Part shown: piece by piece, positions 7,008 through 63,882 of the stretch
Position numbering within the stretch: the first letter of the stretch is position 1
How the letters are laid out: every line of letters starts with the position of its first letter
Virus record (IMG/VR): IMGVR_UViG_3300031952_000010
Span: 27,512-91,511 of that record
Reading direction: 5' to 3' (one strand)
Origin: a virus
Length of the DNA stretch: 64,000 nt
Made by a program: the position numbers and the translations under genes
Notes under the pieces: model-generated
Database searches by the model: none
What the model saw: the letters and a program-made list of their open reading frames with translations, nothing else
Told to the model about the DNA's origin: nothing

Positions 7008-7229
7008 ATGATGAGAGTTCCTATAAAAACATGGAGAAAGATATTTTTAGAAAATCTTTCAGTAAAATTTTTAATGTTAGCAATGTTCTTCAACCCATTT
7101 GGGTTCGATGCCATCCAATACTATCTTATTACAGTAACAGGGAGTATCTGGTACGCCAATTTAATTATGTACTTCATCTCGGGATTCTTCTTTGGTCTAT
7201 ACTTTTATTTTCGAAAATTATCTAAATGA
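7008..7229 (+). CDS. small membrane protein
   Basis: 73-aa protein with two likely transmembrane helices (VKFLMLAMFFNPFGFDAI and YANLIMYFISGFFFGLYFYF) and a basic N-terminus (RVPIKTWRKIF). This frame was preferred to an overlapping one from 6944 because its hydrophobic pattern is coherent and its TGA overlaps the ATG of the next gene (ATGA), suggesting translational coupling. Function unknown. Confidence 0.7.
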   Translation: MMRVPIKTWRKIFLENLSVKFLMLAMFFNPFGFDAIQYYLITVTGSIWYANLIMYFISGFFFGLYFYFRKLSK

Positions 7230-10720: not shown

Positions 10721-11356
10721 TTAGTTTTTTTCCTTAAAAACTCTAATTAATTTAGAGAACAACTCTTTCACAACAATACCTGATACAGTTAAAACACCAA
10801 AAGAGGATAATCTAATTGCGATTTCTTTAGCGTCACCTGTTTTAAATGCCCCTGAAATAACTGCACTATAAACAATAGGTATTAATGGGATAATGAATGC
10901 GTAACTCATTATATTAGTGACTGAATGTAATGTGATGTTTAACCCATCCATAAAATCAACAAAAGTACTTTTTAATTGATTTGCTTTATTTAAACTTGTT
11001 TTAAATTCTTCAGACAATCCCTCAGATTTAATTCTCTCTAATATTTTTCGAATCATTTCTTTATTGTTCATATAGAACGTCGCAATAATTCCTGTTAATA
11101 TTAGACTCATTTCCACATCAGAAACATTAGGGAATCTACCAGATATAAACTCATTTAAAGGGCCAATAAACCCCCCGATACTTGCCCCCCATGTAAATAA
11201 GAATTCAAAATTCATACCCATTTGTTGTGACGACATTTTCAAAACGTCTTTAACAAATTTATAGTTTTGTTTAACCATATCACCGAATTCGTCATTAACG
11301 GATTCTCGTAATATAATTCTTTTTTGATTTTCGTTTATTAATAAAGTAGCACTCAT
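10721..11356 (-). CDS. hypothetical membrane protein with virion-type N-terminus
   Basis: 211-aa protein with about four hydrophobic segments (FEFLFTWGASIGGFIGPL, VEMSLILTGIIATFYM, ITLHSVTNIMSYAFIIPLIPIVYSAVISG, FGVLTVSGIVVKELFS). The start MSATLLINENQKRIILRES resembles the ILTENQ motif of the 2381 gene. TATTTAT lies 6 nt before the ATG on the minus strand. Possibly an internal virion protein that enters the host membrane; that is inference. Confidence 0.55.
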   Translation of the reverse strand: MSATLLINENQKRIILRESVNDEFGDMVKQNYKFVKDVLKMSSQQMGMNFEFLFTWGASIGGFIGPLNEFISGRFPNVSDVEMSLILTGIIATFYMNNKEMIRKILERIKSEGLSEEFKTSLNKANQLKSTFVDFMDGLNITLHSVTNIMSYAFIIPLIPIVYSAVISGAFKTGDAKEIAIRLSSFGVLTVSGIVVKELFSKLIRVFKEKN

Positions 11357-17531: not shown

Positions 17532-18932
17532 ATGAAAATTATGAACAAAAATGAACAAATAATTGAATCTTTACATAGAGTTAAATTGTTAATGGGGTAT
17601 AAATCCACAATGACGTTAACTGAAAATGTTGAAAACCTAAAAGACTCTTTTATTAATGAGTCAATTATTATCACAGAAGGTGCAGGTAAACCTTTACTTA
17701 CGGCTTTATTTGGTGGTGTGGATGATGCGGTAAGAGCAGCCTCTATTTTGGCAAAAGACGCCAAATACGTTGCGGCAACAAAGTCTATTGACGATGCAAT
17801 TGCCGTTACAGGTAAAATAGCTCAAACTGATGGTAGGATACTAACAAAATCAAAGGATATTATCACGGCTATGGAGAAAGGGACTTTAAGTACTGCTGGG
17901 GTTAACCAATTAAAGGCAGGATTTTTAAAAAGTGGTAATCTTGGACCTGAACTTAGAAACACATTAGTTAATCAAGCCTCAGTTGACGCTAGAAATATTA
18001 AAGCTTTCCAAGGGATGACTCAGCAAGAAATAAAAGACGTATTAGTTAAAAAGGGGTTTAACACAGGAATTGCCGATGACATAGCAACACAAATACATCC
18101 TAAAGTTGGTGGTAAATTACCTGTCAAAGGTAATACAACAACTAAAGGTAAAACAAATGCTAAGGGTAAAAATACTACACCAGCAAGAAAAACTAGAGTA
18201 AAACCTGGCTCAAGAACTTACAAACCAGACCCAAGTAAAGTTACTGTTTGGGAAACTATCAAAGGTAGAATCGTGGGATTGACAAGAGGAAAAATATTTA
18301 AATATTTATTAATCGCTGGTGGTTTATACTTAGTATACAAATGGTGGACAGATGAAGGTTCTGCTCCGTTCCCTGATTGTATTTCAAAAAACATTCCTCA
18401 GGAAGATTTTGAAAAAATGGTTAGTGACGGTTTAGATTATGTCTTAATTACTGACACAGGAAATACAACTATTGACCAAAATGGTGGTGGTAGATTCTTT
18501 GATGATAAAAAATTCACAACAGGTAACGGTAAATATAGTGGAACTTGGAGTGAAAAAGATGGTGGTATAGTAATCTCTGTTAGTGGAACTGATTATTCTA
18601 TATCGTGTGAAGGTATGAGTGATAGTGATGACGATAATGATAATGGTGATGGTGGTGGTGATTCAGTAACTACTTATAGAGTATGTGACAGTTTCCCATT
18701 AACTAAAGGTTGTAAAGGTGGTAAAGTAAGTGAATTCCAAAAATGTATTGGAGTTAGTGCTGACGGTAAATTTGGACCTAAAACAGAACAAGGATTAAAA
18801 GATAAAGGACACGACATTATAGTAACTCAAGAGGTATACGATAAGATTCTTAAGAATTGTGGAAAAAGTAATAGTGACATCAATCCAAACGCACCTAAAC
18901 CTGATGCAGGTTCACCTGATGACGATAAATAA
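17532..18932 (+). CDS. putative virion protein with PG-binding-like C-terminus
   Basis: 466-aa protein. The N-terminus (MNKNEQIIESLHRVKLLMGYKSTMTLTEN) is the clearest example of the shared motif; the start may be at this second Met (17541). One TM-like helix (IFKYLLIAGGLYLVYKWW) lies near residue 265. A C-terminal segment (LTKGCKGGKVSEFQKCIGVSADGKFGPKTEQGLKDKG) matches the PG_binding_1 repeat with two extra cysteines. A Ser/Gly/Asp-rich linker separates them. It may anchor to peptidoglycan during DNA entry. Confidence 0.65.
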   Translation: MKIMNKNEQIIESLHRVKLLMGYKSTMTLTENVENLKDSFINESIIITEGAGKPLLTALFGGVDDAVRAASILAKDAKYVAATKSIDDAIAVTGKIAQTDGRILTKSKDIITAMEKGTLSTAGVNQLKAGFLKSGNLGPELRNTLVNQASVDARNIKAFQGMTQQEIKDVLVKKGFNTGIADDIATQIHPKVGGKLPVKGNTTTKGKTNAKGKNTTPARKTRVKPGSRTYKPDPSKVTVWETIKGRIVGLTRGKIFKYLLIAGGLYLVYKWWTDEGSAPFPDCISKNIPQEDFEKMVSDGLDYVLITDTGNTTIDQNGGGRFFDDKKFTTGNGKYSGTWSEKDGGIVISVSGTDYSISCEGMSDSDDDNDNGDGGGDSVTTYRVCDSFPLTKGCKGGKVSEFQKCIGVSADGKFGPKTEQGLKDKGHDIIVTQEVYDKILKNCGKSNSDINPNAPKPDAGSPDDDK

Positions 18933-30600: not shown

Positions 30601-31995
30601 ATGAGTTACAAAAAATTTTTAATAGCGGAATCCGAGAAAAAGAACATTAGAGAAATGTACGGTTTACTAACCGAACAGTATTTCAAACCACCAAACGGTG
30701 GTGAAGGTCAAGTGGTAAATAAATATCCTGCGGGTTACTACTCCTTAAGTGGAACTGATAAGGCGGGTAACGTATATGACAATACAATCAATTTACAAAA
30801 AATTATTGACAATGCCAAAGAGTTTTTAACAACCAATAAAGGTTTTATTCCAAGAGTTGTAATAAACGCGGGAGAATCAATTATCCCTAACTACGACACT
30901 GAAGGGGGTACTGGTGTTAAAAACTCAGGATGGTTATCTGAAAAAAGAAAAAATAAGATTTCTGAATATGTCAAAAATCAATTAAAAGATTTAGTTAGTA
31001 AAAAATTAATATCAAAAGAACCTGAGGTTATTCTATATTTTGATGAAGCTAAAACATTAACGGTACCGTCAGGTGGTTGGGAGGGTTATCGAACATGGAA
31101 AAGAAGTTCTGAAGCTGAAAAGGTTAATAACCCTAATAATGCCGAGTACACCAAATTAAAAACAGGATACGATAATGACCAATTCACCAAAATAAATTTT
31201 AAAATTGTTCCTGATTTAGGCCCAAACCAATGTTCATTTAATGTCAAAATTGGTGTGCATTACGATGATTTAGATATTGGTCATAGATGTAATAAGGCGA
31301 GATTCCAAATATTGGCTAATGGTGTTCCGTTAACAACTGGTGCGGGCTCAACCTGTGGAAATGGTTTATCGTATGCGGACATGAATAACGGTGGTGGTAG
31401 TTTAGATTGTAAATCAGGCGACATTGGTGGTAAAAGAATGAATTACTTCCAACTAAATAGTAAGTCTATTGTGGACAAAATAATGGCGGCGTCTCCCGAC
31501 AAAAACTCAATAAAAATATCCATGAAATGTACATCAACAGGATTTGATGATGCTTCAGGTAGATGTCACCAAGATGTACCACATATTACGATTCATAACA
31601 CTGATGGTAAACAAACGGTTAACACCTACCCTAAAGTTAACGATAAAGATTTAATTACAATTGACAAGTGCGGTAATTTAATTACAGGTGGTGGTGGTGT
31701 CGCAACAAAAAGTAAAGATGCTGGTGGTACTGCAACAACTACAGTTACTACAACAAAACCTACAGGTCAAAAATTAAATTTTGCGTCACCAGCAACAGGA
31801 ACGTTAACTTCTGACCAAGCGATTCTTAATAAAATTAGTGATGGCTCAATTAAGAAAAACGCGGATAATACTTATTCAGTATTAAAAACATTTAATTATA
31901 ATGGTGTGTCTTATAGAATTAATGATACAATTGTTAAAATATTACCTAAAGGTAGTGTAGTAACTACGACAACGACAACTATTAAACCAAAATAA
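30601..31995 (+). CDS. putative virion protein with N-terminal motif
   Basis: 464-aa protein. The start MSYKKFLIAESEKKNIREMYGLLTEQ is a clear example of the shared terminal motif, ending LLTEQ, a possible gp21-type cut site. The middle domain (about 200-350) is beta-rich with several Cys (GPNQCSFNVKIGVHYDDLDIGHRCNKARF; GSTCGNGLSYADM). The C-terminus is Thr-rich and may be surface-exposed. TATTTAT lies 19 nt before the ATG. No enzyme domain seen. Confidence 0.65.
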   Translation: MSYKKFLIAESEKKNIREMYGLLTEQYFKPPNGGEGQVVNKYPAGYYSLSGTDKAGNVYDNTINLQKIIDNAKEFLTTNKGFIPRVVINAGESIIPNYDTEGGTGVKNSGWLSEKRKNKISEYVKNQLKDLVSKKLISKEPEVILYFDEAKTLTVPSGGWEGYRTWKRSSEAEKVNNPNNAEYTKLKTGYDNDQFTKINFKIVPDLGPNQCSFNVKIGVHYDDLDIGHRCNKARFQILANGVPLTTGAGSTCGNGLSYADMNNGGGSLDCKSGDIGGKRMNYFQLNSKSIVDKIMAASPDKNSIKISMKCTSTGFDDASGRCHQDVPHITIHNTDGKQTVNTYPKVNDKDLITIDKCGNLITGGGGVATKSKDAGGTATTTVTTTKPTGQKLNFASPATGTLTSDQAILNKISDGSIKKNADNTYSVLKTFNYNGVSYRINDTIVKILPKGSVVTTTTTTIKPK

Positions 31996-40435: not shown

Positions 40436-40625
40436 GGAATGTCCTTGGGTTGTTAAAAACAAACATAACGAAATGATTACTAATCATTCGACAAAACATA
40501 ATAAACCCCATAATTGTCATATGATATCACCTGAAAAAAGAGGTGGGTTATGGGATGTAAAAGAAGAAACTAAATGTATAGGGAGAAAATTATATGAACA
40601 CAGAGAGAAAGTTAGCGAGTATTAG
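40419..40625 (+). CDS. Cys-rich small protein
   Basis: 68-aa protein (MKKPCKECPWVVKNKHNEMITNHSTKHNKPHNCHMISPEKRGGLWDVKEETKCIG...). The CxxCPW start and later Cys/His spacing suggest a small zinc-binding domain, as in DUF6283-like phage proteins. Sandwiched between overlapping genes of the RNA-repair block. Confidence 0.65.
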   Translation: MKKPCKECPWVVKNKHNEMITNHSTKHNKPHNCHMISPEKRGGLWDVKEETKCIGRKLYEHREKVSEY

Positions 40626-41616
40626 AATTATCAGTGACATCCAACCTATTGAGGGGGCTGATGTGATTGAATTAGCTATTGTCGACAGTTGGAAGGTTGT
40701 TGTTGCTAAGAATGTTGGTTATAAAGTGGGTGATATGGTTATCTACTGTGAAATCGATTCATTCTTACCAATCAAAGATGAATTTGAATTCTTAAGAAAG
40801 ACTTCGTATAAAAAAATGTCTGACGGAACGGAAGGATTTCGTTTAAAAACAATTAAAATGAGAGGGCAAGTTTCTCAGGGATTAATCTTACCAATGTCTG
40901 TTGTAGAATATACTAACGTAGATTTTGAAATTGGCGTGGATGTAACTAATTTATTAGGAATTAGTAAATACGAACCACCAATTCCTGCTGAATTATCAGG
41001 GAAAGTAAAAGGTTTATTCCCTTCTTTCTTACGTAAAACAGATGAGGAAAGAGTTCAAAACTTGACAAAAGAATATGAGAACTATAAATCATTAGGTCGT
41101 AAATTTTATGTGACTGAAAAATTGGATGGTTCTTCTGCAACATTTTACTTCAGAGACGGTGTATTTGGAGTATGTTCTCGTAACTTAGAATTACTTGAAA
41201 CTGAAGGTAACACTTTTTGGAGAGTTGCTCGTGAATTGGATTTGGAAAATAAAATGAAATCTTTGGGTAAAAACATTTCACTCCAAGGGGAATTAATTGG
41301 TGAAGGTATTCAAGGGAATCCTTACAAAATAAAAGGTCAAACTGTAAAATTCTTTAATTTGTTTAATATTGATTTACAAGTATATCATTCTTTATCTCAT
41401 TTGGATAGAGCTCTTGGTATTATGGGACTTAAAATGGTTCCAATTGTTGATGAGTTTTTCAAATTACCTGAAACTATTGAAACTTTATTAAAATATGCGG
41501 ATAATAAATCAATATTAAACCCAAAATTTAATAGAGAGGGAATTGTCATTCGTTCTAACGATAGAACCATCAGTTTCAAGGTTATTAGTAATAAATTCTT
41601 ATTAAACGAAAAATAA
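40594..41616 (+). CDS. RNA ligase, Rnl5/DraRnl-like
   Basis: 340-aa protein. Residues 1-130 form an N-terminal OB-fold-like module (RKLASIRIISDIQPIEGADVIELAIVDSWKVVVAKN). Residues 165-335 hold the nucleotidyltransferase core, with lysine 176 in EKLDGSSATFY (motif I), LQGELIGEGIQGNPY, FFNLFNI and EGIVIRS (motif IV), and a motif V lysine in SFKVISNK. This arrangement matches DraRnl-type (Rnl5) ligases that seal nicks with a 3'-OH RNA end. Likely role: RNA repair. Overlaps genes on both sides. Confidence 0.88.
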   Translation: MNTERKLASIRIISDIQPIEGADVIELAIVDSWKVVVAKNVGYKVGDMVIYCEIDSFLPIKDEFEFLRKTSYKKMSDGTEGFRLKTIKMRGQVSQGLILPMSVVEYTNVDFEIGVDVTNLLGISKYEPPIPAELSGKVKGLFPSFLRKTDEERVQNLTKEYENYKSLGRKFYVTEKLDGSSATFYFRDGVFGVCSRNLELLETEGNTFWRVARELDLENKMKSLGKNISLQGELIGEGIQGNPYKIKGQTVKFFNLFNIDLQVYHSLSHLDRALGIMGLKMVPIVDEFFKLPETIETLLKYADNKSILNPKFNREGIVIRSNDRTISFKVISNKFLLNEK

Positions 41617-41861: not shown

Positions 41862-42944
41862 ATGTTAGAAAGATTGAACAAATATTATGATGAGGGTTTG
41901 ATGCAAAAACAATCGCACCCAACCCTTCCTTTAACTATATGGAACTACACCCCAAAAGTTCAATACGGGGTGACTGGTGACCAATATAAGTTATGGGATG
42001 ATATCACTGTACAATGTAGAGGATTAGTCACTGACAATAACGGAGTTGTTGTTGCAAGACCATTTAAAAAATTCTTCAACATAGAAGAAAACCGACATAT
42101 CTCAACTTCAGATTTTGAAGTATATGAGAAAATGGACGGTTCTTTAGGAATCTTATTCAACTATAAGGGAGAATGGGTTCTTGCGACTCGTGGTTCTTTC
42201 ACTTCTGACCAATCAGTTAAAGGTACTGAGTTACTTCAAAAATACGATTATAACAAATTACATCCTGATTACACTTATTTATTTGAAATAATCTATCCTG
42301 AAAACAGAATAGTTTGCTCTTATAATTTTGAGGATTTAGTTTTGTTAGGAATGATACACACTGAAAGTGGTGTTGAGGTTGATATCCATTTAGGTAATAA
42401 TAACGATGTTAGGTTTAAAAATTTATTAAATAATCTTGAGTTAAATATTGTTAAAAAATACGACGGTATCAAAGATTATACTTTTTTGAAACGTATGATA
42501 GCGGATTCTAAAGAGGGTTTTGTTGTTAGATTCTCAAATGGTGATAGGATAAAAATAAAAGGTGAAGAATACCTTCGTCTTCATAAAATAATGACTAACG
42601 TATCAACAACTGCGGTTTGGGAGGTTCTAAGTTCTGGCGGTGATATGGAGGAAATAATAAAAGATGTACCTGATGAGTTCTACAAGAAAATAAAAATGTA
42701 TGTTCAGGAGCTTAATTATCAGTTTTACCGTTATTCAGAATATGCTGGTAAGATTCATGATTATTTCCGATACGGTAAGTATGGTGATAACGAAAAAGAA
42801 TATAGTAAAAAAGAATTTGCAGAACATTTGGTGAAATGTGATGTACATCCTAAAGTAAAATCTATCTGTTTCGCTATGTGGGACCAAAAACCATATGACC
42901 ATATCATATGGAATTTACTTAAACCAAAATTCGAAAAACTATAA
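41862..42944 (+). CDS. RNA ligase, T4 Rnl1-like
   Basis: 360-aa protein. Motif I lysine 90 lies in VYEKMDGSLGILF, preceded by CRGLVTDNNGVVVARPFKKFFN (the Rnl1 pre-motif) and followed by FEIIYPENRIVC (motif III), EGFVVRF (motif IV) and KIKGEEYLRLH (motif V). This fits the Rnl1 family that repairs tRNA cleaved in the anticodon loop (T4 Rnl1 with Pnkp counters host PrrC). With the Rnl5-like ligase, phosphoesterase and kinase it completes a plausible RNA-repair set. It has its own strong leaderless-type promoter. Confidence 0.9.
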   Translation: MLERLNKYYDEGLMQKQSHPTLPLTIWNYTPKVQYGVTGDQYKLWDDITVQCRGLVTDNNGVVVARPFKKFFNIEENRHISTSDFEVYEKMDGSLGILFNYKGEWVLATRGSFTSDQSVKGTELLQKYDYNKLHPDYTYLFEIIYPENRIVCSYNFEDLVLLGMIHTESGVEVDIHLGNNNDVRFKNLLNNLELNIVKKYDGIKDYTFLKRMIADSKEGFVVRFSNGDRIKIKGEEYLRLHKIMTNVSTTAVWEVLSSGGDMEEIIKDVPDEFYKKIKMYVQELNYQFYRYSEYAGKIHDYFRYGKYGDNEKEYSKKEFAEHLVKCDVHPKVKSICFAMWDQKPYDHIIWNLLKPKFEKL

Positions 42945-43641: not shown

Positions 43642-44310
43642 ATGAGACGATTATTAAACGAAACTTTACAAATACCAGACCCTTCAGATTATACAAACAC
43701 TGACTTCAAACCGTTTGTTGTTGGTAGAAGTAATCCGTTAGCAGATAAGATAAATCCATCCTTATTAAAAGATGTTGATACTGCAGCCAAAAAAGCTAAT
43801 ATTAAAGTTAGTATCACAACCGCGGTTAGTGGTCACGATAAAGGTTCTCGACATGAAAAAGGTTTAGCAGTTGATATAGCCATGATTAATGGTCAAGGAT
43901 ATGGTAGTGAAAAAGCTGCAAAACAAAAAGGTATTTACGACGACATTATGAGATTTGTTTCTGAGTTAGAAAAACTTGGATATACTAAAAATAGTGAATC
44001 GGGTAATGATAAAGCCGTTTTAACATTTGGGTTCCCAAATCACCATCACCATGTACATGTTTCAAGGAATTCAGATACTGGAGTGTCAGATAGTAATGGT
44101 AATGTTACTACAAACCCTAAACCTGATTCACAGGAAACTCCTGACTCAGGTGAAAACTACGATAATATTGATTTTGATACTTCGTCAGATAGTGATAACG
44201 TAATCCAAAAATTTTTAAATCCATTGTTAAGTACATTAGGATTTAAAGAAGGTGAAGAACCAACCAATAAATTAGTTGAGGATATCCAACGAATTAAAAA
44301 TTTATTATAA
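43642..44310 (+). CDS. M15-type peptidase (D-Ala-D-Ala carboxypeptidase-like)
   Basis: 222-aa protein. SGHDKGSRHEKGLAVDIAMI (H...D) and HHHHVHVSRN supply the zinc ligands of M15/VanY-like peptidases, which cut peptide cross-links in peptidoglycan. An Asp/Ser-rich linker leads to a C-terminal tail, NPLLSTLGFKEGEEPTNKLVEDIQRIKNLL. The PLLSTLGFK part is shared with the 52417 protein and the E.IQRIKNLL end with other virion candidates. Its start MRRLLNETLQ also fits the motif. Probably packaged for cell-wall entry or used at lysis. Confidence 0.82.
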   Translation: MRRLLNETLQIPDPSDYTNTDFKPFVVGRSNPLADKINPSLLKDVDTAAKKANIKVSITTAVSGHDKGSRHEKGLAVDIAMINGQGYGSEKAAKQKGIYDDIMRFVSELEKLGYTKNSESGNDKAVLTFGFPNHHHHVHVSRNSDTGVSDSNGNVTTNPKPDSQETPDSGENYDNIDFDTSSDSDNVIQKFLNPLLSTLGFKEGEEPTNKLVEDIQRIKNLL

Positions 44311-44933
44311 TGGAAAAATTTACTAATCCAGCACCATATGGTAATATGAAATCATCAATAATGTCAAAATCTGTTGATTTAATTTCATATCCAAATTCAA
44401 AATTAATAAATCCGTATGATGGTGTTATTGTTTTTGACAGAACTCCTTCTTGTGAAAACTTAATTAAAATTAAACATGAGTTTAATGGCGATAATGTATA
44501 TTCTGAATTTTGTAATGTTGGTAAGTCATTTGTTTCACCAGGAGATAGAATAAAACAAGGTCAAATTATTGGACATTTCACTGACGATAGAATTGGGTAC
44601 TCAATTAAAAACGATGATGATAAAAAATTAGACGTGTCAAAATATATGGAAGGGTTTAAAACTAAAAAAGAGGAACCTAAAAAAGAGGAACCTAAAAAAG
44701 AGGAACCTAAAAAAGAAGACCCTGAAAAAAAGATTAATAAACTTGATGTCGGTAATAAAGACGTTGGTTCTGGTAATATATTCTTAGATACTTTACTATC
44801 CCCATTTTCAATTGCAAACGATATTACAAGTGGTGTTGGTAAAGAGATTAAGAAAGCCTTTAAAGAAGATTACGGTGGTAATAAAAGACTTACAGAACAA
44901 ATAGATAAGATTAAAAAAATTATAAAGTATTAA
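44310..44933 (+). CDS. degenerate M23-like (LytM fold) protein
   Basis: 207-aa protein. LINPYDGVIVFDRTPSCENLIKIKHEFNGDNVYSEFCNVGKSFVSPGDRIKQGQIIGHF follows the beta-sheet plan of M23 endopeptidases, but the HxxxD and HxH zinc ligands are not visible, so it is probably inactive. A KKEEP repeat (three copies near residue 120) precedes a C-terminal domain ending NKRLTEQIDKIKKIIKY, similar in plan to the M15 protein's end. It overlaps that gene by 1 nt. Perhaps a structural partner of the peptidase. Confidence 0.65.
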   Translation: MEKFTNPAPYGNMKSSIMSKSVDLISYPNSKLINPYDGVIVFDRTPSCENLIKIKHEFNGDNVYSEFCNVGKSFVSPGDRIKQGQIIGHFTDDRIGYSIKNDDDKKLDVSKYMEGFKTKKEEPKKEEPKKEEPKKEDPEKKINKLDVGNKDVGSGNIFLDTLLSPFSIANDITSGVGKEIKKAFKEDYGGNKRLTEQIDKIKKIIKY

Positions 44934-49687: not shown

Positions 49688-49712
49688 AAAAAGGGGGTTA
49701 TTCAACCCCTTT
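49688..49712 (-). terminator. terminator of the clpC-like gene
   Basis: Minus strand: AGGGGTTGAATAACCCCCT then seven Ts. It overlaps the last codons of the gene. Confidence 0.8.
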
Positions 49713-51740
49713 TCTTTTTCTTATAACTTTCTTTCCATCTTTGAATTTGACATCCCCATTTTCACTGATTAAAGTGTATTCGATATTTTCTTGGATGTTA
49801 CTCTTAAGAACTTCTTCCGAGATAAAATCTTCTATTTTATCCTGAATAGCCCTTTTTAGTGGACGAGCCCCGTACATCTCATCAAACCCAACCTCAGAAA
49901 TCATTTCAATAATAGAGTCATCAAATTTAATATTATATTTAAGACCTGTTAATCTTTCAGATAAAACATTCAACTCAAGTTTAACAATTTTTTTAACATC
50001 TTCTTTCACTAATGAATTGAAAATGATAACTTCATCAATACGATTTAAAAATTCAGGAGCGAAAAACTTCTTAAGTTCTTTCTTCAAAACTTCTCTTTTT
50101 TGTTCTTCCTCAACATAAGAACTTGAGTTAGTTTTAAAACCTACACCAGCTCCAAAATCTTGTAGTTTTTTAACTCCAACATTCGATGTCATGATGATAA
50201 TACAGTTTTTGAAATTAATCTTTCTTCCCATACCATCAGTAAGGTGACCGTCATCCAACACTTGTAATAATGTTGAGAATATGTCTTTGTTTGCCTTTTC
50301 AATCTCGTCAAACAAAATTACCGAGTAAGGTTTGTTCTTAACTTGTTCAGTTAATTGACCACCTTCATCATAACCTACATATCCTGGAGGTGCCCCAATT
50401 AATCTTGAAATACTATGTTTTTCTTGGTATTCAGACATGTCCACACGAATCATATTTTCTTCACTACCAAACATTTGTTTTGCCAATTGTTTTGCCAAGT
50501 AGGTTTTACCCACACCAGTTGAGCCAAGGAAAATAAATGAACCTATTGGTTTGTTAGGGTCTTTAATACCTAATCTGTTTCGTCTGATTGACTTAGCAAT
50601 TTTCATAACCGCTTCAGATTGTCCAATTACTTTGTCAGATAAACTACTGTCTAATTGACTTAATAACATTGTTTCATCGGCGTTTAATTTACTAATAGGA
50701 ATTTTGGTCATGTTTGAAACAACCTCATAAACCAACTCAATAGAAACTTCTTTCTTCTTAACTTGAAGTTCATCTTCAAATTTTTTCTTCTCAATATCTA
50801 ATTTATTAAGAATACGTTTTTCTTTATCACGTAAGTTTGCCGCCTCCTCGTAATTTTGTTTTTTAACTACCTCAAGTTTTTCAATTTTAACATCCGCAGC
50901 CTCTTGCTTTAATTTCTCAATAATTTCAGGCATTTTAATCTCAACCTGACATCTTGCACCAACCTCATCAATAATGTCAAATGCCTTATCAGGGAACTCT
51001 CTATCAGTGATATATCTTGCCGCCAAATCAACACATACAGAAAGTACTTCATCAGTATAGGACACCTTATGAAATGTTTCGTACTTGTCTTTAACATTTT
51101 TAAGAATTTCTAATGTTTCTTCTTTTGTTGAAGCGTCAACAATAACCTTTTGGAATCGTCTTTCTAAAGCTCCGTCTTTCTCAAAGTTCTTACGATACTC
51201 GTCAAGAGTTGTAGCACCAACACATTGAATTTCTCCACGAGCAAGTGCTGGTTTAAAGATATTTGATGCGTCTAAAGAACCTGATGAATTACCAGCTCCA
51301 ACAATAGTGTGAATCTCATCAATAAACACAATGATATTTGGGGCGTTTTGTAATTCTTCAATAATTACCTTCATACGTTCCTCAAACTGACCACGATATT
51401 TTGTACCTGCAACGATTGAAGTCATATCTAAAGACACTATTCTTTTGTCCATTAAATTTCTCGGACATTCACCGTTAAAAATTTTAATAGCTAATCCTTC
51501 TACGATTGCGGTTTTACCACAACCAGGTTCACCAATAATAATAGGGTTGTTTTTCTTTCTACGAGAAAGAATTTGAGCTATTCTCGTAATTTCTCTCTCT
51601 CTACCAACTACAGGGTCTAACTTACCTTGTTCGGCTAATTTGATTAAATCTCTACTGAAGTTATCCAACACAGGTGTTGAAGAGTCAGATGTTGATTTAG
51701 GTGGGTTATTCTTTCCCCCATTGTCCATGGATTCTATCAT
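49698..51740 (-). CDS. clpC: ClpC-like Hsp100 AAA+ unfoldase lacking the N-domain
   Basis: 680-aa protein with two AAA+ modules. First: GEPGCGKT (70-77), VFIDEIHTIVGAG, GATTLDEYRK. Then a short UVR-like middle segment (KLEVVKKQNYEEAANLRDKEKRIL), characteristic of ClpC. Second: GSTGVGKT, DEIEKAN, MTSNVG and the sensor-2 GARPLKRAIQ. After MTSNVG there is a VGF tripeptide (GAGVGFKTN), the ClpP-docking loop of ClpC/ClpA, so partnership with host ClpP is plausible. The N-terminal Clp_N repeat domain is missing and replaced by a Ser/Thr/Pro-rich 25-residue stretch, so adaptor and substrate choice should differ from host ClpC. Confidence 0.93.
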   Translation of the reverse strand: MIESMDNGGKNNPPKSTSDSSTPVLDNFSRDLIKLAEQGKLDPVVGREREITRIAQILSRRKKNNPIIIGEPGCGKTAIVEGLAIKIFNGECPRNLMDKRIVSLDMTSIVAGTKYRGQFEERMKVIIEELQNAPNIIVFIDEIHTIVGAGNSSGSLDASNIFKPALARGEIQCVGATTLDEYRKNFEKDGALERRFQKVIVDASTKEETLEILKNVKDKYETFHKVSYTDEVLSVCVDLAARYITDREFPDKAFDIIDEVGARCQVEIKMPEIIEKLKQEAADVKIEKLEVVKKQNYEEAANLRDKEKRILNKLDIEKKKFEDELQVKKKEVSIELVYEVVSNMTKIPISKLNADETMLLSQLDSSLSDKVIGQSEAVMKIAKSIRRNRLGIKDPNKPIGSFIFLGSTGVGKTYLAKQLAKQMFGSEENMIRVDMSEYQEKHSISRLIGAPPGYVGYDEGGQLTEQVKNKPYSVILFDEIEKANKDIFSTLLQVLDDGHLTDGMGRKINFKNCIIIMTSNVGVKKLQDFGAGVGFKTNSSSYVEEEQKREVLKKELKKFFAPEFLNRIDEVIIFNSLVKEDVKKIVKLELNVLSERLTGLKYNIKFDDSIIEMISEVGFDEMYGARPLKRAIQDKIEDFISEEVLKSNIQENIEYTLISENGDVKFKDGKKVIRKRKGVE

Positions 51741-51851: not shown

Positions 51852-52187
51852 ATGATAAAACACTATACCAAATATATTGAGACTCTTGGTGCCGACGAAG
51901 AACTTATAGAAACCTATAAGAATCTTAGACAGGCCTTTCAAAGAGAAGGATGGTCAGAAAAAGATTTAGAAAGTCCACCATACTACCCTCAAGATATTAT
52001 GAGGAACTTTCAAAGGTTTAGTAGTTTACATTCAAAATTATTCCAAGAATTAAAAAGTTTTTTTCCTGATATTGACCACAATGAATTTGTTGATTATCTT
52101 AGTGGTAAATTACAAATAATAGATTCAGAAACACCTTTACAAAATGGCAGTAAAAAAAGAAGAGATAATCGGGACGAAGATTATTAA
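51852..52187 (+). CDS. hypothetical protein
   Basis: 111-aa protein (MIKHYTKYIETLGADEELIETYKNLRQAFQREGWSEKDLES...). Start at ATG 51852 because of the TATTTAT-N4 spacing. Mostly helical, ending in a basic/acidic tail (GSKKRRDNRDEDY). It overlaps the next gene by 44 nt. First gene of the right-hand late operon. Confidence 0.65.
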   Translation: MIKHYTKYIETLGADEELIETYKNLRQAFQREGWSEKDLESPPYYPQDIMRNFQRFSSLHSKLFQELKSFFPDIDHNEFVDYLSGKLQIIDSETPLQNGSKKRRDNRDEDY

Positions 52188-52386
52188 TGAGATTGACTCA
52201 AGTAACTTAGTAAAAACTGAGTACGACACCGAAACCAAATTAATGGTGGTGGAATTTAAAAACGGTATGAAATATCAATATGATGCGGTTCCTCATGAAG
52301 TTTACACAAGATTTAGAATGAATGAATCTCAGGGTAAATTTTTTAATACCGAAATTTCTAAAAAATACAAATATACTAAACTTTAA
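52144..52386 (+). CDS. KTSC-domain protein
   Basis: 80-aa protein. DSSNLVKTEYDTETKLMVVEFKNGMKYQYDAVPHEVYTRFRMNESQGKFFNTEISKKYKYTKL fits the KTSC domain (named for the C-terminal part of some lysyl-tRNA synthetases), a small nucleic-acid-associated fold common in phages. Precise role unknown. Confidence 0.85.
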   Translation: MAVKKEEIIGTKIINEIDSSNLVKTEYDTETKLMVVEFKNGMKYQYDAVPHEVYTRFRMNESQGKFFNTEISKKYKYTKL

Positions 52387-52416: not shown

Positions 52417-53712
52417 ATGAGTGATTTAAAAAGTATATTAACTAGTTTTCACGTACAAGACGAATTAAATCCTAAGATTTGGGATAATTCTATGGAGAAG
52501 ATGTCACCTAAAGTTAGGTCACGTCTACTTGAGATTGCTTATGAGTTCATAGAATTTTTAAAAGTTGATATTGTAGTATCAGACGTTATAATGACAGGGT
52601 CATTAGCCAACTATAACTGGTCAAAATTTTCAGATGTTGATTTACATATCTTAGTCGACTTTAATCAGTTCTCAAAAACCGAATTACCTTTATACGAAGA
52701 ATTATTTCAACTAAAAAAAACCATATATAACGACAAACACGATATCACCATCTACGGATATGAAGTTGAGTTATATGTTCAAAACGAAATTGAGGCTCAC
52801 TTTAGTAGTGGAGTGTATTCTGTTTTATTTGATACATGGGAAAATGAACCTAAAAAAGAAAATGTTAAAATTGACCTTGAATTGATTAAAAACAAATCAA
52901 AACAATGGATGGATATTATTGACGGTGTTATTGAAAGTGTTCAGGATGAATCTATTGATGATACTAAAAAAATTATCGACAAGTATAAGAAAAAACTTAA
53001 GAAATATAGAACTTGCGGATTGGAAGAAGGAGGTGAATATTCTGACGAAAACTTAGTATTCAAAGTATTACGAAGAAATGGGTATATTGAGAAATTATAC
53101 CAATATCAAGATAATCGTATTGATAAGGAATTATCATTGAAAGAATCTACAACAACTATCGGTGGTAATTTTAAAACTGATTTAGAAAACGGTCCAAAAA
53201 ATCATGGTAGTAGAAAATTAGGTAATTGGCAGTCGGATAACGCTTGGGATATTTTTGCACCTCCCAATACAGTTGTTAATTCATATACTAACGGTACTGT
53301 TACTAAAATTAGAGATACAGGAAAAAATTCTGGAAAAATTTTTGGAACACAAGTATCAATTAAAGGTGCTGAAGGATTTCCTGAAATTTTTTACACTCAC
53401 GTTAAAGATGTAAAACTAAAAAATGGTGATACTGTTAAAGTTGGTGATTACATTGGGGTTGTTTCTGAATGGGTTGGACATGATACAATGACTCACGTAC
53501 ACATAGGATTACCTTATGGTCAACATATCAGAGATTTGTTAAAAAATTCTGGAAAAATTTTTACCAATAAATTGGGTACTGATTATAAAGATGACAGTAA
53601 TAATGACAAAACAGATTACGATGAGCCTGTTATTACCAAAGGTAGTGAAGGAAGTAATAAAGAAGTTAATAATTGGCTAGAACCATTATTATCGACATTA
53701 GGATTTAAATAA
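52417..53712 (+). CDS. fusion of nucleotidyltransferase domain and M23 peptidase
   Basis: 431-aa protein. Residues about 30-235 are a minimal nucleotidyltransferase: VIMTGSLANYNWSKFSDVDLHILVDF gives the GS and DxD motifs, with a later VELYVQ strand. Residues about 245-385 are an M23 (LytM) endopeptidase: HGSRKLGNWQSDNAWDIFAPPNTVV (H, D) and THVHIGLPYG (HxH). The tail WLEPLLSTLGFK matches the tail of the M15 protein at 43642. Separate families that transfer nucleotides and cut cell wall are rarely joined. The peptidase probably acts at entry or lysis; the nucleotidyltransferase target is unknown. Confidence 0.85.
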   Translation: MSDLKSILTSFHVQDELNPKIWDNSMEKMSPKVRSRLLEIAYEFIEFLKVDIVVSDVIMTGSLANYNWSKFSDVDLHILVDFNQFSKTELPLYEELFQLKKTIYNDKHDITIYGYEVELYVQNEIEAHFSSGVYSVLFDTWENEPKKENVKIDLELIKNKSKQWMDIIDGVIESVQDESIDDTKKIIDKYKKKLKKYRTCGLEEGGEYSDENLVFKVLRRNGYIEKLYQYQDNRIDKELSLKESTTTIGGNFKTDLENGPKNHGSRKLGNWQSDNAWDIFAPPNTVVNSYTNGTVTKIRDTGKNSGKIFGTQVSIKGAEGFPEIFYTHVKDVKLKNGDTVKVGDYIGVVSEWVGHDTMTHVHIGLPYGQHIRDLLKNSGKIFTNKLGTDYKDDSNNDKTDYDEPVITKGSEGSNKEVNNWLEPLLSTLGFK

Positions 53713-53794: not shown

Positions 53795-55147
53795 ATGGGA
53801 AACTTAAAACCAATTGGAAGTGAAAAATTACAAGGTATGGATAAAATCAATCGTATCATTGAAATTTCTAGATATAACGAAAATACTCCGACGCCTATAA
53901 ATGAAGATAAATCAATCGAATATAGAAAGACTTTATCTGACGGAAACAATTATCTAATTGTTAAAGAAAAAAATGGATATGTGATTAAAAAATCACTAAC
54001 CGAATCTGCTGGTGAAAATGATTACTTAGAACCAATGAAAAATAGAAAATACTATTCTTCTTATTCACAAGCATTCAAACGTCTTAACTTAATCGCTAAA
54101 GAGGTTAATGTTAATGAAGGGTATGAATCAAATGTTTCATTATTTGGTGAGAGTGATATTGATGAAAAAGCGGCAACAAAATACATTTTAAAAATGGGTG
54201 AAACTAAGGAACAAGCGGCTCCCGCACCTGCTCCCGCACCTGCTCCCGCACCTGCTCCCGCACCTGCTCCCGCACCTGCTCCCGCACCTGCACCTGCACC
54301 GACAGATGACTTAGGTATGGAGGATGAATTAGGTATGGAAGAACCTGAAGGTGACGAAATGGAACAACCTGAAGAGGATGAAGTTATAACATTAAAAGTT
54401 ATTCAAAAATTAACAGGTAAATTAGCTCAGAAGTTAAGAGCTTTCCAAGATACTCAAGAAGATGAGGAACCAATGACATCTAAGGACATTAAATATGTTG
54501 TTAATTCTATATTATCGGCATTAAATTTAGAATCATTAGACGAAGAAGATAAAGAAGATATTTTAAATAAAATTGAAGGTGTCGAATCTGATGAAGAATT
54601 TGGTGGTGAAGAAATGGGTATAGAAGAACCTGAAGGTGACGAAATGGGTATGGAAGAACCTGAAGGTGAAATGGCTGAGGGTGATTCTGGTATGTTTGAT
54701 GATGAAGATGAAGCACTTTCTGCAGGTAAAAAATTGACGGATAAAATTTTTGGTGAAGGTCATGATGAAGAAGATGGTGAAGAATACCATTCAAAAATTA
54801 AAGGTGTTAACCCAAAACATGGTAAACACATGGAAGATGTTATCGAAGGACTTTTTACCGAATCTAAAGTTGACAATATATTAAAAAAATATTTTAAAGT
54901 TGAGGAAAACGAACGTAATTTAATTGAGGCTAAAAAACAAAAACTTAATTTAATTAAAGAAAACAAATCAAAAACAATTAGTAAAATTAAGATTGTTTCT
55001 GAAAGTATTTCTCAAGAAGTTGCATCAACTAAATTGGTCTCTAAATACCCTAACGCTAAATTAGTAGGTAAAACAAATCATAAAAATTTAGTTTTTGAAA
55101 TGAACAATAAACAACTTAGAGTTACTGTTAAAGGTCAGATACTATAA
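53795..55147 (+). CDS. acidic structural/scaffold-like protein with Ala-Pro repeat
   Basis: 450-aa protein. N-terminus MGNLKPIGSEKLQGMDKINRIIEISRYNE is a variant of the shared motif. A 30-residue Ala-Pro rod (about 143-170) is encoded by 12-bp DNA repeats. Acidic Gly/Met/Glu repeats follow (GMEEPEGDEM-type). The C-terminal 130 residues are basic and helical (FTESKVDNILKKYFKVEENERNLIEAKKQKLNLIKEN). Position before the packaging genes suggests a head or scaffold role. Confidence 0.65.
   Translation: MGNLKPIGSEKLQGMDKINRIIEISRYNENTPTPINEDKSIEYRKTLSDGNNYLIVKEKNGYVIKKSLTESAGENDYLEPMKNRKYYSSYSQAFKRLNLIAKEVNVNEGYESNVSLFGESDIDEKAATKYILKMGETKEQAAPAPAPAPAPAPAPAPAPAPAPAPAPAPTDDLGMEDELGMEEPEGDEMEQPEEDEVITLKVIQKLTGKLAQKLRAFQDTQEDEEPMTSKDIKYVVNSILSALNLESLDEEDKEDILNKIEGVESDEEFGGEEMGIEEPEGDEMGMEEPEGEMAEGDSGMFDDEDEALSAGKKLTDKIFGEGHDEEDGEEYHSKIKGVNPKHGKHMEDVIEGLFTESKVDNILKKYFKVEENERNLIEAKKQKLNLIKENKSKTISKIKIVSESISQEVASTKLVSKYPNAKLVGKTNHKNLVFEMNNKQLRVTVKGQIL
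54216..54300 (+). repeat. 12-bp tandem repeat coding for Ala-Pro
   Basis: GCTCCCGCACCT repeated about six times with a shortened end. Slippage could vary its length between isolates. Confidence 0.9.
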
Positions 55148-59796: not shown

Positions 59797-61641
59797 ATGG
59801 AAAACAATCAAAATAATCAATTTACAGTTTGGCAGAGGTTATCTCAAGCCTTTGGTCCTAACGCCCTGTTAAATCAAGATTATCCAACATATAAGTTAGA
59901 CAAGACTGAGTTATTAAAAACAACATCAAAACAAGAATACGACAAAGAAAAATTACAAGCTCAACAAACGTATTACTTAGCCAATCAATGGACTAAAATT
60001 GAGAGTAACTTATACACTCAAGCGGTTTATTATGAACCAACAAGATTAGCATCATTCTATGATTATGAATCGATGGAATATACTCCTGAAATTTCTGCAG
60101 CTTTAGATATCTACGGTGAAGAATCAACAACTGTTGACCAAAATGGTTACATGTTACAAATCTATTCAGAATCTAAACGTATTAAATCAATCTTAATTGA
60201 CTTATTTAATAATGTTTTAGATATCAATACTAATTTACCAATGTGGACAAGAAATACCGCAAAATACGGTGATAATTTTGTTTATTTAAAATTAGATGCT
60301 GAGAAAGGTATAGTTGGTTGTATGCAATTACCAAATATTGAGATTGAACGACTTGAAAGAGGTATGGCTGCAAAATCAGCAAACGTTGAGGAACCCGCAG
60401 AAAACAAAGGTTTAAGGTTTAAGTGGAAAGCCAAAGATATGGAATTTAATTCATGGGAAGTTGCTCACTTTAGATTATTAGGTGATGATAGAAAATTACC
60501 TTACGGTACTTCTATGTTAGAAAAAGCAAGACGTATTTGGAAACAATTATTATTATCAGAAGATGCGATGTTAATCTATCGTACCTCAAGAGCCCCTGAA
60601 AGACGTGTGTTTAAAGTCTTTGTAGGTAATATGGATGATAAAGACGTTGAGTCATACGTACAACGTGTTGCAAACAAATTTAAACGTAGTCAGGTTGTTG
60701 ATAGTCAATCGGGTAATGTCGATATGAGATTTAACCAAATGGCCGTTGACCAAGATTATTTTATACCTGTACGTGACCCAGCTCAAGCATCCCCAATTGA
60801 GACTCTACCAGGAGCTCAGAACTTAGCAGAGATTGCCGACATCGAATACATACAAAAGAAATTATTAACCGCTCTTAGAGTTCCTAAAGCGTTTTTAGGG
60901 TTTGAGGAAGTTGTTGGTGACGGTAAGAATTTATCATTACAAGACATCCGTTTTGCAAGAACAATTAATAGAATTCAAAAATCTATGATTGCTGAAATGA
61001 ATAAAATCTCTATTATTCATTTATTCTTATTAGGATTTGAAGATGAGTTATCAAACTTTACATTAGGTTTAACTAACCCATCAACACAAGCCGATTTATT
61101 AAAAATTGATGTTTGGAAAGAAAAAGTTTTATTATACAAAGATGCCGTAACACCAATCGAAGGTATTGCTCCAGTGTCTGTGACTTGGGCTAAGAAACAC
61201 GTATTAGGATTCTCGGATGAAGAGATTAAATTAGATTTACAACAACAACGTGTTGAAAAAGCCGTTGGTGCTGAATTAACTAACACCGCAACTATTATCA
61301 GTCATACAGGTGTATTTGATAATATTGATAAATTATATGGTGTTAAATCAGGAGCCACTCAAACTGTGGGGGCAACTCCACCACCTCCAGGAGGTGAATC
61401 AAGTGGAGGAGGATTAGGCGCACCTGAAGATATGGGTGGAGGAGCCCCAATACCACCGCCACCAGGGCCTGAGCCAGTCGGTGACGCGGGGTTAACACCT
61501 GAATCATATAAACGTGATAACTTAACAATTTTATTAGAAAGTGATAACTTAACAGATTCGGATTCATTTATTGATTTGTCTAAAGCAAGAAATTCTTTAG
61601 GTGAAATGGAAAAAGAATTAAACAAACTTCTAAAAGACTGA
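59797..61641 (+). CDS. portal protein (T4 gp20-like)
   Basis: 614-aa protein with portal landmarks: YYEPTRLASFYDYESMEYTPEISAALDIYGEEST, PMWTRNTAKYGDNFVYLKLD, AHFRLLGDDRKLPYGTSMLEKARRIWKQLLLSEDAMLIYRTSRAPERRVFKV, and PGAQNLAEIADIEYIQKKLLTALRVPKAFLGFEE. The dodecameric portal is the DNA gate at one capsid vertex. A Pro/Gly-rich C-terminal segment (PPPPGGESSGGGLGAP) precedes a short helical tail. Confidence 0.94.
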   Translation: MENNQNNQFTVWQRLSQAFGPNALLNQDYPTYKLDKTELLKTTSKQEYDKEKLQAQQTYYLANQWTKIESNLYTQAVYYEPTRLASFYDYESMEYTPEISAALDIYGEESTTVDQNGYMLQIYSESKRIKSILIDLFNNVLDINTNLPMWTRNTAKYGDNFVYLKLDAEKGIVGCMQLPNIEIERLERGMAAKSANVEEPAENKGLRFKWKAKDMEFNSWEVAHFRLLGDDRKLPYGTSMLEKARRIWKQLLLSEDAMLIYRTSRAPERRVFKVFVGNMDDKDVESYVQRVANKFKRSQVVDSQSGNVDMRFNQMAVDQDYFIPVRDPAQASPIETLPGAQNLAEIADIEYIQKKLLTALRVPKAFLGFEEVVGDGKNLSLQDIRFARTINRIQKSMIAEMNKISIIHLFLLGFEDELSNFTLGLTNPSTQADLLKIDVWKEKVLLYKDAVTPIEGIAPVSVTWAKKHVLGFSDEEIKLDLQQQRVEKAVGAELTNTATIISHTGVFDNIDKLYGVKSGATQTVGATPPPPGGESSGGGLGAPEDMGGGAPIPPPPGPEPVGDAGLTPESYKRDNLTILLESDNLTDSDSFIDLSKARNSLGEMEKELNKLLKD

Positions 61642-61661: not shown

Positions 61662-62381
61662 ATGACAAATTTTGGAATAATTAAATCGAAGATAGAAGAT
61701 GTGTTATTAGAATCATATAAAAACAACACATTTAAACAAGAATTCAAAAACTTTAAAAAGTTAGTTTTAGAAAATAAAAAAATATGCAAACTTTTTTATT
61801 TATACGATGATTTATCTTCTAATAAAGGATTATCGGAATCAATTGTTAACGAATATGTAAATGAATGTATAACCATTTATGAAAATACCGTTAATAAAAT
61901 ACAAGAGTCGGATATTATACCATTAAAGTCTTGGGTTAAAAACTCTAAGGTTGATAATCAATATAATAATATTGATAATTTATTCTCGAGAGATGTCTTA
62001 ACGATTGAATCAAGAATAACTAGTAAAAAAAATATTTCAGAATCTCTTAAGAAATTACCTACCAAGAAAGTAGATACAGTTCAAATATCATTAACTTCTA
62101 TGGTTAATGTTGCTAATAAAACAATTTCAAATTTTATTGATTCATTAACTGAGTCAGACAAAAAAGAATTAACAAGACTTTTATCTGAGGATGACGTTAC
62201 TTTAAATCAAAAATTTGATAATGTTAAAGAAAGTGTTGTAAATAAATTAACTGAAATGAAAAACAATAATGAGGATAAGTCAACTCAAACAAGAATTGAT
62301 GAAACTCTTGATAAAGTAATTTCAGAAAAATACGACAAGTTAACTTATTTTAAACTTAAAAGTTTAAATGAGAATCTTTAA
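61662..62381 (+). CDS. hypothetical late protein between portal and protease
   Basis: 239-aa helical, charged protein (MTNFGIIKSKIEDVLLESYKNNTFKQEFKNFKKLVLENKKICKLFYLYDDL...). Several LxE/IxE sites, possible targets of the protease. In T4 the same place holds small core proteins, so a prohead-core role is plausible. Convergent with rpsU, overlapping by 4 nt. Confidence 0.65.
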   Translation: MTNFGIIKSKIEDVLLESYKNNTFKQEFKNFKKLVLENKKICKLFYLYDDLSSNKGLSESIVNEYVNECITIYENTVNKIQESDIIPLKSWVKNSKVDNQYNNIDNLFSRDVLTIESRITSKKNISESLKKLPTKKVDTVQISLTSMVNVANKTISNFIDSLTESDKKELTRLLSEDDVTLNQKFDNVKESVVNKLTEMKNNNEDKSTQTRIDETLDKVISEKYDKLTYFKLKSLNENL

Positions 62382-62660: not shown

Positions 62661-63131
62661 ATGAAAAAGGGGAAAACCTCACACATTCACGGATTCAACA
62701 CTGCCAAGGTAGTATACGGAACAGTTGATTCGATGAATTTTAAGTCACTCTATCTTAACATCCAAACATGGGTAGAACCAACTACAGAGTGCGAAAATTG
62801 GACAAGGACAGTTCTCAATATGAGCAGAGCCATAAAACATTCGGTCTACGAAACCTTAGATAAAGAGTTATTTGATGATAAATTTATAGTGGATTTAGAT
62901 TTAAGGTCCAGCGGGTTAAATCAAGGTAAAAAATCTTTTATGAATTTAGAAATTAATTTCTTTTTGAATGATGATGGGCATGACTTTAAATCCAAAGAAA
63001 TTAAAGATTCACTTAAAGATATTACTACAAGAATTTTTTACGAAAACTTTGTAGGTAACGATTACTTTAAATTTTATCTAACTAAAAAAATCAAAACAAA
63101 CAACGAGACGTTACAATTAGAGAATGTTTAA
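62661..63131 (+). CDS. hypothetical conserved late protein
   Basis: 156-aa protein (MKKGKTSHIHGFNTAKVVYGTVDSMNFKSLYLNIQTWVEPTTECENWTRTVLNMSRAIKHSVYETL...DKFIVDLDLRSSGLNQGKKSFMNLEINFFL...). Alpha/beta, basic start. Placed between portal and prohead protease. Its end overlaps the reading frame extension of the protease gene. Function unknown. Confidence 0.72.
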   Translation: MKKGKTSHIHGFNTAKVVYGTVDSMNFKSLYLNIQTWVEPTTECENWTRTVLNMSRAIKHSVYETLDKELFDDKFIVDLDLRSSGLNQGKKSFMNLEINFFLNDDGHDFKSKEIKDSLKDITTRIFYENFVGNDYFKFYLTKKIKTNNETLQLENV

Positions 63132-63153
63132 TATTTATAATAAAACATTTGAG

Positions 63154-63882
63154 ATGAATTTAAGAATTTTACAACCAACTGAAATAGGTAAAGGTATATT
63201 AATAGAATACGATGCGGGTTACGTATCACCAACAGATACACATAATGCTAAGATTATTAAAGAATCTAAAGGTAATATGTTAGACCATTCTAAACCATTT
63301 GAATTTTATGCGGTATTACAGAAATATAATACCCCAAACAGAAATGGTAGAATATACCCTGAACGTATTTTAAAAAGAGAAGCTGAAAACTATAAAAAAA
63401 TGATAGAAAAGGGTACCTCTCTTTCAGAGTTAAATCACCCTGAATCATCTTTAATAGATTTAGATAGAGTTTCTCATATGATTACTGAAGTATGGTGGGA
63501 AGGACCTGTATTAATGGGTAAGATACAATTACTTACTTCACCAGGATTCCACGAAAGAGGTATTGTATCAACCAAAGGAGATTTAGCAGCTAACTACCTA
63601 AGACAAGGAGTTACGTTAGGAATCTCCTCAAGAGGGGTTGGTTCCCTTAAAAAAGTTGGTGAACAGAACGAGGTCCAAGAAGATTTTGAATTAATCTGTT
63701 TTGACTTAGTATCGTCACCATCAACACCAGGAGCGTATTTATTCCAAAATCCTGAAGATAGATTTAACTTTGAGGAGAACTTGGAAGAGGAGAAAAAAAT
63801 TAAAGTCGAAAGAGAAGTTGGGGAAAGTGGAAATAAATCACTTGACTTAATGAAAAAATTGAACGATTATTTAGGATATTAA
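63154..63882 (+). CDS. prohead maturation protease (T4 gp21-like)
   Basis: 242-aa protein. FYAVLQKYNTPNRNGRIYPERIL begins the conserved region; SELNHPESS carries the catalytic His and LGISSRGVGS the catalytic Ser of the U9/herpesvirus-type serine protease fold. It should cut head proteins at LxE/IxE sites. Start set at the eleventh codon of the open frame (MNLRILQPTE), which follows TATTTAT by 16 nt; a start at 63124 would overlap the upstream gene. Confidence 0.92.
   Translation: MNLRILQPTEIGKGILIEYDAGYVSPTDTHNAKIIKESKGNMLDHSKPFEFYAVLQKYNTPNRNGRIYPERILKREAENYKKMIEKGTSLSELNHPESSLIDLDRVSHMITEVWWEGPVLMGKIQLLTSPGFHERGIVSTKGDLAANYLRQGVTLGISSRGVGSLKKVGEQNEVQEDFELICFDLVSSPSTPGAYLFQNPEDRFNFEENLEEEKKIKVEREVGESGNKSLDLMKKLNDYLGY

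Follow-up and report, generated by a model that had tools for sequence, protein, structure and literature searches.

An in-frame nucleotidyltransferase–lysin fusion in a T4-like phage with a candidate prohead-protease site at its module boundary

The window, the whole stretch of DNA analysed here, comprises the final 64 kb of an IMG/VR phage record 91.5 kb long. Within it, a T4-like phage of uncultured water bacteria encodes a nucleotidyltransferase (NTase) and a cell-wall-cutting enzyme in one chain (Table 1). The terminase, portal and S77 protease genes all lie downstream of the fusion gene in the window. A first-pass annotation of this DNA had placed NTase and M23 domains in a single protein, and this was borne out: the 431-aa ORF is uninterrupted and both Pfam domains score above their cut-offs. 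A missed frameshift or gene boundary near residue 240, which the annotation had suggested checking for, was not found; the domain boundary is at residues 243/244 and the frame is continuous across it.

Table 1. Features of the fusion gene, its neighbours and the related lysin and head genes in the window.
Feature	Position	Strand	Remarks
GH19/PG_binding endolysin candidate	4107-4928		predicted from sequence
M15-like peptidase	43642..44310	+	weak Pfam hit, M15_4 0.029
Degenerate M23 domain without catalytic His	44310..44933	+	PF01551 3.6e-8; C-terminal tag LTE/QIDKIKKIIKY
KTSC-domain gene, conserved immediate upstream neighbour of NTase	52144..52386	+	PF13619 1.7e-17; order kept in standalone loci
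NTase–M23 fusion ORF	52417-53712	+	431 codons, no stop or frame change
NTase domain, residues 1-240	52417..53136	+	PF01909, phrog_36119
NTase GS motif (G61-S62)	52597-52602	+	invariant in alignment
NTase D73; D75; E118	52633-52635; 52639-52641; 52768-52770	+	invariant in 16 aligned relatives
Junction L241-K242-E243/S244, candidate prohead-protease site and module boundary	53137..53148	+	cut expected between 53145 and 53146
Divergent M23-type peptidase module, residues 244-385	53146..53571	+	PF01551 at 275-366
M23 D274; D278; H328; H360; H362	53236-53238; 53248-53250; 53398-53400; 53494-53496; 53500-53502	+	
Short tail WLEPLLSTLGFK common to M15-like protein, without the subsequent tag	53674..53709	+	sequence
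Acidic conserved gene (MGxLKPIGSEKLQGMDKINRI...), downstream neighbour	53795..55147	+	follows NTase in standalone loci inspected
T4-type portal protein	59797..61641	+	PF07230 6.8e-76
Core/scaffold-like protein between portal and protease	61662..62381	+	no Pfam hit above cut-off
Prohead protease, family S77 (T4 gp21 type)	63124..63882	+	PF03420 1.7e-22, phrog_207 1.1e-42

NTP_transf_2 (PF01909) matches residues 43-127 of the fusion (E 1.4e-5; 25.9 bits against a Pfam cut-off of 21), and residues 10-241 match the 247-aa PHROGs family phrog_36119 (E 1.4e-43). No variation is seen at G61-S62, D73, D75 or E118 across sequences that reach as far as cyanophages and Cr30, and the domain is therefore likely to be an active nucleotidyltransferase. 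The profile match to the AMPylation domain of DrrA is borderline (E 0.02). The phrog_36119 NTases of cyanophages, Lak phages, Maribacter phage Molly and Caulobacter phage Cr30 are homologous over nearly the full 247-residue profile and have identical catalytic residues but, unlike the window chain, no fused lysin. In Cr30 (L085:2877-4212), an annotated phrog_181 endolysin gene directly precedes the NTase gene with an 8-base overlap. No lysin adjoins the NTase in ~90 other distant loci searched with single-sequence queries, a non-exhaustive search that missed the GH24 fusion described below; with Cr30 the sole case within its reach, a general NTase–lysin neighbourhood in other phages was rejected.

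The second domain matches Peptidase_M23 (PF01551; E 2.7e-10; 40.8 bits against a cut-off of 28.7). The motifs of both domains had been described as intact, which holds for the NTase and for H328, H360xH362 and D278 of the M23 module, invariant in 12 aligned modules, but not for the first metal ligand: the canonical HxxxD is replaced by D274-N-A-W-D278, with Asp in place of His in all 12. Because of this departure we use the label 'M23-type domain', a prediction from sequence, and do not claim peptidase activity. LytM-type M23 structures (PDB 2b44, 2b0p) belong to the same family by profile (a weak match, 1e-6) and have the HxH, YxH and ligand Asp in common, whereas their first ligand is His. 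Against cultured phages the module gave no match at E 1e-4. Its best PDB profile match (8.3e-8) is 9k2v, a phage 'Internal protein' of 1058 aa with an M23 domain; here too a lysin domain lies within a molecule, one named as an internal protein, but no NTase part was seen in the match. Modular phage endolysins have catalytic or binding modules in common with this lineage (M23, GH19, PG_binding_1, VanY, PF18013), but where they usually have an N-terminal enzymatic or targeting domain, the lineage has the NTase and a protease-like joint. The C-terminal tail said to be shared with the M15 peptidase does exist (fusion, WLEPLLSTLGFK; M15-like protein, FLNPLLSTLGFK; core in common, PLLSTLGFK), but it is short, and the M15-like protein extends 20 residues past it (...KLVEDIQRIKNLL) that are absent from the fusion.

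A scan of IMG/VR gave 79 loci with the NTase and/or M23 module. In ~50 of these the NTase and a lysin are in one frame (two with a classical M23); ~27 have the NTase only, at ~245 aa and ending within a few residues of the position of the fusion's junction; and one has the M23 module only. The fusion sought in other phages is thus present, in-frame, in ~50 further contigs from many metagenomes, at 54-100% identity. Since chain and frame are the same throughout, we take the fusion to be real, with no assembly joint or frameshift. A sequencing or assembly error that merged two genes, named by the first-pass annotation as what would overturn its proposal, is excluded by these contigs and their identities down to 54%, and its probability is negligible. 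We also rejected a separate lysin made from an internal start (AAGGA with an in-frame TTG at 53137), since just two of the listed distinct junctions have the TTG. A literature search found no paper on an NTase–M23 endolysin fusion.

The site of the NTase gene is fixed whether the gene is alone or fused: the KTSC gene, the NTase and the acidic core-like gene, then on towards the terminase, portal and protease. The acidic gene is probably related to the head core or scaffold. Its product begins ...GMDKINRIIEISRYNE, resembling the RIKxLM tag of the lysins described below, and that tag may mimic a core-protein helix. A gene for a ClpA/B-like AAA+ unfoldase (49698-51740, minus strand) lies just upstream of the NTase block and is conserved near here in G001, G002 and G006. 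Behind the NTase, relatives carry second M23 domains, classical M23, PG_binding_1, GH19, VanY/M15, PF18013 'tail lysozyme', glucosaminidase and others, and L271, from a distant lineage, has the NTase fused to a GH24 lysozyme. The exchanges fall exactly at ...LSLKE|S; the NTases of L050 and L029, for example, are nearly identical, and the sequences diverge from the residue after LTLKEA. A tree of 149 NTases implies 13 changes of lysin label, six of them forced by well-supported branches; the tree is from FastTree only and some 'lys' labels come from a loose pattern (L227 and L304 are doubtful, and L262 was missed). The premise that the two enzymes share one pathway is therefore unsupported: the NTase is a separate phage-wide family onto which unrelated wall-degrading modules have been swapped repeatedly at an (L/I)xE boundary, and NTase and lysin probably need not act together.

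At all 30 distinct junctions of the window-type M23 module, position -9 before a conserved Phe is Glu and position -11 is Leu or Ile. The background for [LI]xE is 1.3% per position, whilst sequence relatedness makes exact probabilities for the junction motif meaningless. Six of the 30 have a short tag before the module in place of the NTase and still show (L/I)xE, as in MKLIITETQLKYLITE/GKEVIGG (L370), MNRNTSKKIISE/GSTNIGG (L080) and YIIEDILKKILVE/GETNIGG (L366); LVEDIQRIKNLL is another tag, alongside MKLIITETQLKYLITE. A test set beforehand was that unrelated lysin modules should start right after [LI]xE. For the M15-like module of G002/L181 this was seen in seven of seven contexts (MEINE/T, MEINE/V, MEKNINE/V, QKLNE/V, SSLNE/A, NTITE/S and NTase...FFLNE/A), and for the window M15 module in five of five (RRLLNE/T, RRFLNE/T, RSYINE/K, NILNE/A and YILE/G), the L181 and window examples having been known before the test was set and the other contexts being new. 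Because the upstream partners differ, the (L/I)xE register appears hard to explain by ancestry alone. Two observations count against a cleavage site. The clade includes standalone NTases that likewise end LSLKE or LSLNE, so the junction motif may in part be the old NTase C-terminus; and an N-terminal LxE is missing from the classical M23 of G001 (L104:16493).

The protein encoded between portal and protease has 11 (L/I)xE sites against 3.7 expected (none of 2000 shuffles was as high), often with Ser next, a pattern resembling that of a chopped-up core protein. The relatives' major capsid proteins have an N-terminal LINE/A, at what we take to be the place of the T4 gp23 maturation cut. T4 ipII and ipIII have the N-terminus MKTYQEFIAEA. 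Distant NTases begin, for example, MQNFSEFIAE, MKTFSSYIKE or MLNFSDYLTE and have in common with T4 MKTYQEFIAE the N-terminal spacing M..[FY]..[FY][LI].E; the exact spacing of the T4 capsid-targeting sequence (CTS) occurs in 18 of the 73 distant NTase frames but in 15 of the 853 other frames from those loci. Judged by these T4-CTS-like N-termini, other T4-like lineages seem to carry the NTase itself as head cargo. In T4, gp21 cleaves after L/I-X-E; in the CTS of IPIII, targeting relies chiefly on residues 4 and 7 and processing on residues 8 and 10; and both ends of Alt undergo processing (PMC9026906). The window phage has in common with the CTS-bearing, gp21-cut proteins IPI-IPIII and Alt of T4 an (L/I)xE boundary, together with an S77 protease gene and a T4-like head module. 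However, in the T4 internal proteins LxE follows a 10-19-residue leader, whereas in the window it lies between two enzyme domains; a leader of that length ending (L/I)xE is absent from the window NTase (N-terminus MSDLKSILTSFHVQDELNP), which counts against packaging. The cargo in the window also differs from the T4 internal proteins in being a predicted peptidoglycan hydrolase.

A separate lysin locus lies 8-10 kb upstream of the fusion gene. Its M15-like protein has a leader MRRLLNE/T (kept in relatives) and a C-terminal tag LVE/DIQRIKNLL, which contain the only two LxE sites of the chain. Tags of the latter type recur on the lysins of this locus (window M15 and dead M23, G001, G002, G006), always after [LIVM]xE, and the locus holds modules that are elsewhere fused to the NTase (the M23 of G006 is the window M23, and the M15 of G002 is that of L181). 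A C-terminal tag is absent from every NTase fusion chain whose C-terminus was read. In two large relatives, tag-like N-termini are over-represented across the genome (17 against 1.3 expected, and 24 against 2.3 expected), and 15 of 17 RIKxLM-type motifs are at protein ends. In the stretches read of two cultured phages there was one weak match to the tags (immuto) or none (Mel-JY01); we therefore rejected the tags as a general T4-like phage feature, and the idea rests on uncultured phages. Shared N-terminal motifs (such as ILTENQ, LIAESEKKNIREMYGLLTEQ and ESLHRVKLLMG) also occur on unrelated window proteins (1344-2387, 7226-8344, 10721-11356, 17532-18932 and 30601-31995) and throughout G001 and G002, with a PPK2-like kinase and a metalloprotease-like protein among the bearers; these motifs are possibly head-targeting tags.

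With other cutters swapped in behind a prohead-protease-like motif, the two enzymes are probably made together, loaded into the head and cut apart. Our preferred reading, to which we give a probability of about 0.5, is that the gene encodes a head-packaged pro-protein in the style of the T4 'internal head proteins', in which the NTase is both carrier and effector. From the sequence anatomy and its conservation, the swapping at the site and the protease gene, we infer packaging, cleavage, ejection, both activities and their substrates as follows. The chain, with a conserved N-terminal NTase and an exchangeable C-terminal M23-type lysin, would enter the prohead core during head assembly, where the S77 prohead protease would cut after E243 (L-K-E/S). 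Both freed proteins would then be ejected along with the DNA, the NTase to modify a host target as infection begins and the lysin to attack peptidoglycan either during entry or at lysis. As it occupies the place of the short N-terminal (or C-terminal) tag on related lysins, the NTase would be an alternative carrier in this clade. Against a packaged lysin, one freed into the cytoplasm could not reach peptidoglycan unaided.

That the chain is instead an uncut bifunctional late lysin, in which the lysin would be tethered, regulated or timed by the NTase (or both would work at lysis), with LxE just an inherited linker, is unlikely, although it would fit several observations: all fusions are one ORF, they keep the NTase catalytic residues, their modules are typical of endolysins, and in Cr30 the endolysin gene precedes and overlaps that of the NTase. 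It sits poorly with an LxE position that is kept when a short tag replaces the NTase, and in two other module families, and with the lack of a nearby lysin at the ~90 other distant NTase loci with the queries used. We think it improbable, too, that the NTase gene simply has a recombination hot spot at its 3' end, with the lysin cassettes that landed there co-translated but not processed and the joint functionless. The many different cassettes at a single locus, the at least six changes forced by well-supported branches and the many relatives with a standalone NTase at the same site are all consistent with such passengers, but random landing leaves the Glu and Leu/Ile in 30/30 junctions unexplained, as well as an LxE that recurs behind another linker (L181, FFLNE/A).

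The leaders and tags could also be uncut peptides for docking at, or targeting to, some non-head structure (e.g. tail, membrane or lysin complex), with the NTase replacing a docking peptide. Tags of the RIKxLM type at either protein end would suit docking, and the modules include PF18013 'phage tail lysozyme'; the exact (L/I)xE register and the T4-CTS-like N-termini on distant NTases favour the head route, and we consider docking very improbable.

If the pro-protein reading is true, an odd domain pair becomes a readable rule, a prohead-protease-like joint common to lysins and the NTase, and the injected proteins of uncultured T4-like phages would be searchable by sequence alone. The phrog_36119 family would gain a likely place, in the head interior and early infection, and phage lysins a delivery route not described in the papers found by literature search. 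More broadly, and tentatively, perhaps a little short of an even chance, a large T4-like clade, probably of Bacteroidota phages, may load its heads with peptidoglycan-hydrolase pro-enzymes that are released by the prohead protease, the carrier being a short terminal tag or a whole NTase; together with dozens of other tagged proteins per genome, these would make up a delivered effector set.

Several further genes were noted. At L262:126-3590, four consecutive genes upstream of the NTase chain have T4-CTS-like starts (MLSFNQYLIE, MLISFKNFINE, MPKSFKQYILE and MKSFKQYVIE). Giant chains of 1100-1200 aa (L300:1712-5110 and L304:1450-5058) combine a cytidylyltransferase-like domain, metalloprotease-like parts and an NTase of the fusion family, with a ligase-like EKTDGQN segment also in L304, and look like multi-enzyme polyproteins. 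In the window, two adjoining ORFs (40594-41616 and 41862-42944) have ligase-like KxDG motifs (EKLDGSS and EKMDGSL) and are possibly RNA ligases.
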